Of a stretch of DNA of 64,000 bases, positions 38,563-39,816 are shown in pieces. Position numbers and translations under genes: made by a program. How positions within the stretch are numbered: position 1 is the first letter of the stretch; each line of letters starts with the position of its first letter. The notes below the pieces were generated by a model, which saw only the letters and a program-made list of their open reading frames with translations, was not told where the DNA came from and ran no database searches. This stretch comes from Metallumcola ferriviriculae (GTDB taxonomy: Bacteria; Bacillota; JADQBR01): assembly GCF_035573695.1 (NCBI RefSeq), contig NZ_CP121694.1, positions 2,022,501-2,086,500 of the forward strand. Reading direction: 5' to 3'.

Positions 38563-38650
38563 CCATTTGATTCTTGCATAGTTCCCTTCGCCCCGGGAAA
38601 AATAAATATGTATGGGTGCACAAAAAATTATTTTTCGGGGAGGCTTGGGA

Positions 38651-39781
38651 ATGGAAATAAAAGCTGTTTCGCAGGAAATAGTAGACATGCTAGTGCAGCG
38701 AACGACAGAGTTAAGTCAGGGTAGAAACGCGGGTTGTCTAGGTTTTATTGACGACACCGGCTTTGTTTCTTCCAGCACAAAAGTAATTGATGGTGGTTTA
38801 AATGGCATTCCGTTAAGAATAATGCTGAGCCATATAACGAACATGGAAGGTAAATCGTTAATAGAGGGAATGTCGTCGGTCCCAGATAATGCTGTGCTTA
38901 TAATGACACGCCCCGGAAAAACCGGTTTAATTACCGACGTTTCCGGTGTAGATTTTTTTAACTTGCCTATCATAAGCATTGGTGTTAAAAATAATGGATT
39001 AGCCGGCATTGGATTAATCATGCCAAAGGAAGAATATTTTGATTTGGCCACGGAATCAGAAATGTTAAATTTGGCGACATTAGGGTCGGTAACTATGGAT
39101 GACGAAAAGGAAGTTCTGAAAAAAAGTAATTTACTTAGTCTTAAATATTTGGAATTGACAACTGAACTGGGTGTCAGTAATAAAAACGGCAGTGACGAAT
39201 ACACCAGTCAACACGAGCATACTATCGATATTCCCCGCATTAAGATCAATGCCATTGACAAAGGGCTGGCCAGAGATTTGGTGGACAGGTCTATGGAGGT
39301 TGGTCAGGGGCGGGAAGTTGCCATGATGGGTAGAATTGAAGACGGCCGGGTGGTTTCTCAGGGCCAGATAGTTGAAGGAGGCATTGGTTTTGTCCCTTCA
39401 CGACTATTAGCTTCCAGCGCCGTAGATATTTCACAAAAATCATTACGCAAAATTTATAGTGAGCTTGTTCCGGAAGATGCTGTAATAGTACATACACACC
39501 CGGGCGGTACCGGCGTGATGCATATTGGCGATGCCAATGCTGGCCCGGGTACTTGGGGAAGAGCGATTGTCGCAATCGGTCATGATGCCAAGGGCAAGAT
39601 ACGTGGTGCCACGGTAGTGGAAAGCGGTGACAAACTGTATCAATTGGCAGATGAAGATGAACAGCTTGGTCTGCAATTTTTTCAGGCAGAAACGCCTGAG
39701 CGGGAAGCTGAAATACGTAACAGAAAGTTCGGCATTGCCCAGGAATACACGGGTTTATGTAAACCTATTCAAATTAATTGA
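38651..39781 (+). CDS. Tandem JAMM-like domain protein, N-terminal copy apparently inactive
   Basis: A 376-residue protein with two homologous halves. Residues 21-92 (LSQGRNAGCLGFI to RPGKTG) align with 217-288 (VGQGREVAMMGRI to HPGGTG). The second copy has HTHP at 281-284 and Asp 294, giving HxH-x7-H-xx-D, close to the JAMM/MPN+ zinc protease pattern HxH-x7-S-xx-D with His in place of Ser. In the first copy the same place is MTRP at 85-88, so both metal histidines are gone. No signal or membrane segment. ATG 38651 has GGGGAGG upstream. It sits between smc and ftsY. I cannot name the family; protease or deubiquitinase-like activity is inference. Confidence 0.8.
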   Translation: MEIKAVSQEIVDMLVQRTTELSQGRNAGCLGFIDDTGFVSSSTKVIDGGLNGIPLRIMLSHITNMEGKSLIEGMSSVPDNAVLIMTRPGKTGLITDVSGVDFFNLPIISIGVKNNGLAGIGLIMPKEEYFDLATESEMLNLATLGSVTMDDEKEVLKKSNLLSLKYLELTTELGVSNKNGSDEYTSQHEHTIDIPRIKINAIDKGLARDLVDRSMEVGQGREVAMMGRIEDGRVVSQGQIVEGGIGFVPSRLLASSAVDISQKSLRKIYSELVPEDAVIVHTHPGGTGVMHIGDANAGPGTWGRAIVAIGHDAKGKIRGATVVESGDKLYQLADEDEQLGLQFFQAETPEREAEIRNRKFGIAQEYTGLCKPIQIN

Positions 39782-39787
39782 TGATTC

Positions 39788-39816
39788 CGGTTAAGGTCTC
39801 GACCTTAACCGTTTTT
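39788..39816 (+). terminator. Terminator after the JAMM-like gene
   Basis: CGGTTAAGGTC and GACCTTAACCG form a perfect 11-bp stem followed by TTTTT, separating this gene from ftsY. Confidence 0.85.

Follow-up and report, generated by a model that had tools for sequence, protein, structure and literature searches.

The gene at 38651 to 39781 of the window (the whole stretch of 64,000 nucleotides that was analyzed) raises the question of what a bacterium does with a protein that appears to hold two JAMM-like domains in one chain, the first of them without a metal site, and whether its place between smc and ftsY tells anything about its role. The start codon is the ATG at 38651, with GGGGAGG upstream of it at about 38637, and the stop codon is found at 39779-39781. 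A second in-frame ATG lies upstream at 38612; the homologues begin at the methionine of 38651. The features of the locus are as follows.

38651..39781, + strand: two-domain JAMM-fold protein, 376 amino acids plus stop; open reading frame with a ribosome-binding site, conserved at full length in 40 of the phylum genomes sampled
38651..39178, + strand: N-terminal pseudo-JAMM half, aa 1-176; homologous to the C-half, matches AfJAMM 1r5x and PfJAMM1 5ld9, metal ligands gone
38717..38728, + strand: QGRN, aa 23-26, at the JAMM Glu position with N for E; from the alignment of 39 sequences
38903..38938, + strand: MTRPGKTGLITD, aa 85-96, dead metal site of the N-half; both His gone in every homologue
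39179..39238, + strand: variable linker, aa 177-196; low identity, lowest pLDDT in the model
39239..39778, + strand: C-terminal JAMM half with intact site, aa 197-376; separate AlphaFold2 model, PDB matches nearly all JAMM/MPN
39314..39316, + strand: Glu222, candidate general base and putative equivalent of AfJAMM E22, assigned from invariance and topology
39491..39532, + strand: HTHPGGTGVMHIGD, aa 281-294, JAMM motif in which His291 takes the place of Ser; from invariance and motif spacing
39788..39811, + strand: terminator-like stem-loop and T run between the gene and ftsY; a consensus match only

The two halves of the protein are related over their full length. Residues 1-176 align with residues 197-376 with 52 of 181 positions identical (29%, E=2e-21), and a profile-profile comparison of the halves gives E ~1e-29. 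The internal repeat originally predicted between residues 21-92 and 217-288 is real, and forms the core of this longer match. Mean pairwise identity is 54% in the N-half, 65% in the C-half and 22.5% in the linker (approximately 177-196), which is the sole poorly conserved stretch of the protein. In a tree of the halves, all N-halves lie apart from all C-halves on a long branch with a support of 1.0. Because the two groups separate this cleanly, the duplication is, as judged from the sequences, older than the whole family, and both halves descend from this one ancient event. In 398 genomes of the phylum no relative with just one of the halves turned up, and the scores drop from E=1e-19 straight to E=2e-3. 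Together with the clean split of the trees, this indicates that the pairing of N-half and C-half is obligatory within the sample.

The predicted structure places both halves in the same superfamily. AlphaFold2 modeled the full chain with a pLDDT of 88 and a pTM of 0.86 (only 9 sequences in the input), and the C-half alone with a pLDDT of 83. Nearly every PDB structure retrieved with the full-length model, or with the model of the C-half on its own, is a JAMM/MPN protein: Rpn11, PfJAMM1, CSN5, AMSH, AfJAMM, Mov34, Prp8 and BRCC36. Rpn11, PfJAMM1, CSN5 and other MPN proteins lead the Foldseek matches, with modest E values from 1.1e-3 (whole model) and 5.9e-4 (C-half), and VIA-align matched each of the halves with Z scores of 7-8.4, which taken alone are middling. 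The N-half matched AfJAMM (1r5x; Z 7.5, 101 of 103 residues, rmsd 2.8), PfJAMM1 (5ld9; Z 6.8) and also Prp8 in VIA-align, and the C-half matched PfJAMM1 (Z 8.1, 118 of 130 residues) and also AMSH. A viral structure library returned only weak-scoring RadC/JAB-type and capsid proteins. The fold assignment is convincing because of the near-uniform identity of the structural matches and the motif discussed below. The original prediction had staked its case on a JAMM fold in each half, and structure prediction combined with the PDB fold search gives JAMM/MPN for both. We have high confidence in the JAMM fold of the two halves and in the pairing of a dead with a live domain.

Sequence comparison is far less informative on this point. 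Pfam, NCBIfam, PHROGs, PADLOC and PDB sequences were all searched, with no match better than chance. Neither the whole protein nor one of its halves matched any Pfam family above the curated cut-off, the JAB families (PF01398, PF14464 and RadC PF04002) included, and a Pfam search of eight C-halves returned two unrelated weak matches only. A search of the literature, both for JAMM pseudo-enzymes that are tandem or bacterial and for names an annotation might use, turned up no account of the family, which is unnamed in the libraries searched. When the C-half was compared by hhalign with seven bacterial JAMM proteins (six Prok-JAB and one RadC), the result was P=0.011 with a probability of 3.8%, in a register with the HxH and Asp aligned and the Glu out of register. 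Since this result is weak, the assignment to JAMM depends on the fold and the motif and not on sequence profiles. The host also encodes a canonical single-domain Prok-JAB JAMM (L041; G000:C1:2867777-2868115, minus strand) beside ThiF/MoeB-like and ThiS-like genes, and thus has an ordinary sulfur-carrier JAMM as well as RadC (L042).

In the JAMM motif, EXnHS/THX7SXXD, two His and the Asp sit on zinc and the Glu is the base (PMC300881). The last Ser of the motif stabilizes the intermediate, its side chain being located where thermolysin has the N-epsilon of His231, and activity of Csn5 was abolished when the catalytic Ser was changed to Ala (PMC300881). The spacing in the C-half is identical to that published, with His291 at the Ser position. 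As originally read in the second copy, HTHPGGTGVMHIGD corresponds to H281-x-H283-x7-H291-xx-D294, and the zinc-ligand pattern of HxH and Asp at JAMM spacing (HxHx10D) is present as H281, H283 and D294. The JAMM Ser, eight residues after the second His, is absent, and all 40 sequences have His291 instead. E222, H281, T282, H283, P284, H291 and D294 show no variation across the 39 distinct sequences aligned, and all seven are retained in the 40th sequence, which carries the variant HTHPGATG (HTHPGA for HTHPGG). The most distant pair among these 40 distinct homologues is 46% identical. Loss of HTHP or Asp294 in homologues would have spoken against the original prediction, and both are invariant in the 40. 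In the model, Glu222 opens the strand that follows the first helix of the C-half, where the catalytic Glu would be expected; hhalign did not align it to the JAMM Glu. The pair His311-Asp312 is near-invariant in the C-half (His311 in 38 of 39), and may provide extra catalytic or ligand-binding residues.

The equivalent site in the N-half has lost both His, and what was predicted from a single sequence extends to all homologues aligned. Across 39 homologues, position 85 is T, S, M, V, I or F and position 87 is R, N, S, K or I, giving a consensus of [TS]T[RN]PGKTGL at the dead site. The MTRP of the host protein, whose conservation had been queried, is not strictly kept (R87 in 28 of 39), while P88, G89, K90 and G92 are nearly or fully invariant. 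At the place of the JAMM Glu, Q23, G24 and R25 are invariant, whereas of the 39 sequences 29 have N at position 26 and only one has E. This divergent N-half (L040) keeps the Glu (GREVACIA) and lacks both His, and resembles a halfway stage in the loss of the site. Compared with the loop of the C-half, that of the N-half is shorter by 2 residues, with an Asp left in most sequences, and D96 may for this reason be the retained Asp equivalent. With 54% mean identity and 16 invariant residues, the N-half keeps the motifs QGR, GGxxGxP.R and [TS]TxPGKTGL, which suggests that it is maintained and not decaying, and fits a working partner. As in the partner domain of MPN-/MPN+ pairs, the metal ligands are missing, both His being lost in all homologues. 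An invariant Lys113 in the N-half, at or beside the place matching His311-Asp312 of the C-half, is another possible catalytic or ligand-binding residue.

Profile searches of the phylum of the window found the gene in 37 of 299 and 40 of 398 genomes (about 10-12%), with one copy in each and always at full length, and it is carried by 3 of 3 genomes of the host's class. Other phyla were covered solely by a pattern-based scan that took a single genome for each species and gave eight relatives, all from Clostridia/Firmicutes records. No relative was found on the plasmids, phages and viral contigs searched, which speaks against a mobile or defence gene. A link to sporulation was considered and set aside: spoIVA is present in 28 of 28 high-quality carriers compared to 200 of 239 non-carriers (Fisher p=0.02), an association too weak given shared ancestry.

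Our favored explanation, which we regard as rather probable, is that the protein is a single-chain JAMM-type zinc hydrolase in which His291 acts like His231 of thermolysin, fused to a pseudo-JAMM partner. H281, H283 and D294 are predicted to bind Zn2+, and E222 would activate the zinc water. His291, at the place of Ser in other JAMM enzymes, would stabilize the tetrahedral intermediate, and as the AfJAMM paper puts this Ser at the N-epsilon of thermolysin His231, a change from Ser to His would be thermolysin-like. The N-half could serve as a fused MPN- partner which fixes the active conformation or forms one wall of the substrate groove, and would then do in cis what Rpn8 or KIAA0157 does in trans. 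The activity of BRCC36 needs an inactive MPN- subunit (PMC4579573). The pairing of a pseudo-enzyme half with an active-looking half inside one bacterial chain, as first proposed, is supported by sequence. Counting against the mechanism in the C-half, the catalytic Ser is absent and sequence profiles barely detect the JAMM relation, and our confidence in hydrolase activity, argued from conserved residues, is moderate. The substrate would most likely be an amide bond, peptide or isopeptide, in a cytosolic protein, with low confidence in any substrate.

The main rival to a hydrolase is a non-catalytic metal or ligand binder. The C-half would then bind metal without hydrolysis, the protein would serve as a regulator or scaffold that binds a metal or ligand, and His291 would fill the coordination sphere as an additional ligand. 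Non-catalytic JAMM domains are common, and the replacement of Ser by His in all homologues, the near-invariant His311 and the high place of the Prp8 Jab1 domain in the structural matches of both halves would all agree with such a role. However, Glu222 and the bracing Thr282 are invariant like the metal ligands, and a pure binding site would not need them. Additionally, thermolysin His231 provides a functional analogue for the change from Ser to His (PMC300881), and we consider the non-catalytic binder unlikely, while still the strongest competitor. A superficial JAMM resemblance, i.e., another alpha/beta fold with a chance HxH-x7-H-xx-D, might explain why there is no sequence-profile match in Pfam, NCBIfam, PHROGs and PDB sequences, and why a Z of ~8 falls in the middling range of the aligner. 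This is very improbable, as two separately run models match almost all one superfamily, the matches cover most of the small JAMM domains (118-125 of ~130 PfJAMM1 residues), and the exactly spaced motif is located at a strand end as in JAMM proteins.

The gene order could instead mean that the protein works together with SMC or FtsY, in chromosome segregation or membrane targeting, as ftsY is found downstream in 41 of 41 carrier genomes examined (window included) and smc upstream in 38 of 41. However, smc is still upstream of ftsY in 17 of 20 non-carrier genomes, in 16 of them within 25-520 nt. The smc/ftsY neighbourhood is therefore probably a matter of positional inheritance: the gene either entered an old smc-ftsY neighbourhood or disappeared from it, and the adjacency says little about function. 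Candidatus Formimonas and a Moorella-like genus also have the gene apart from smc, and the window has a terminator-like stem (10 bp, then TTTTTC) separating the gene from ftsY; these points together make a partnership with SMC or FtsY quite doubtful. In Candidatus Formimonas (L007), NiFe-hydrogenase genes are found upstream of the gene and smc does not adjoin, and in the Moorella-like genus (L085, with L037 of the same genus) selA-selB and a LysR-type regulator intervene in L085. In one further carrier (L084), ftsY follows after ~1.6 kb of extra sequence downstream of the gene. The long smc-ftsY gap of one non-carrier (L090) was checked for a relic of the gene, and no ORF resembling the family was found.

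Returning to the hydrolase, we tentatively suggest a broader scenario, which we hold to be quite possible: bacteria would independently have built a single-chain MPN-/MPN+ by duplication and changed the JAMM Ser to His, giving a thermolysin-like JAMM hydrolase with a cellular substrate, from a family absent from the searched libraries and found in largely spore-forming lineages. To our knowledge, the activation of a live JAMM by a dead JAMM has been studied mainly in eukaryotic complexes. A bacterial chain of 376 residues that always bears both halves would be a minimal system for testing such activation, and a natural change from Ser to His in a JAMM site would test the proposed analogy between JAMM and thermolysin. 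A conserved chromosomal gene, unnamed in the searched libraries and present in about 10-12% of the sampled phylum genomes, also gains a structural class.

Among known systems, the Jab1/MPN-like domain of Prp8 is one of the best structural matches of both halves (Z ~8), but it is non-catalytic, belongs to a giant eukaryotic protein and has a degenerate metal site, unlike the C-half. RadC, also in the host, is likewise a bacterial protein with a JAMM-type HNHPSGDPTPSKED motif, whereas it has a single JAMM domain with a different N-terminal region, keeps the Ser and is found in a different gene context. The Prok-JAB proteins (PF14464) beside ThiS/ThiF, such as that of the host, share the HxHP...D motif with equal spacing; they differ in being single-domain, in keeping the Ser and in lying among sulfur-carrier genes, and the profile comparison with them gave the P=0.011 reported above. 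The JAMM/MPN+ isopeptidases (Rpn11, CSN5, AMSH, BRCC36, AfJAMM and PfJAMM1) resemble each half in predicted fold and share the HTH and Asp of the motif, and probably its Glu, with the same spacing (H-x-H-x7-[position 8]-xx-D). In contrast to them, the protein described here has His for the conserved Ser, two domains per chain, no recognizable sequence similarity and no adjoining gene for a ubiquitin-like partner. The MPN-/MPN+ heterodimers (Rpn8-Rpn11, CSN6-CSN5 and KIAA0157-BRCC36) similarly pair a metal-less JAMM domain with one having a metal site, a likeness in domain pairing, but here the two halves derive from one ancient duplication and are fused in one bacterial chain.
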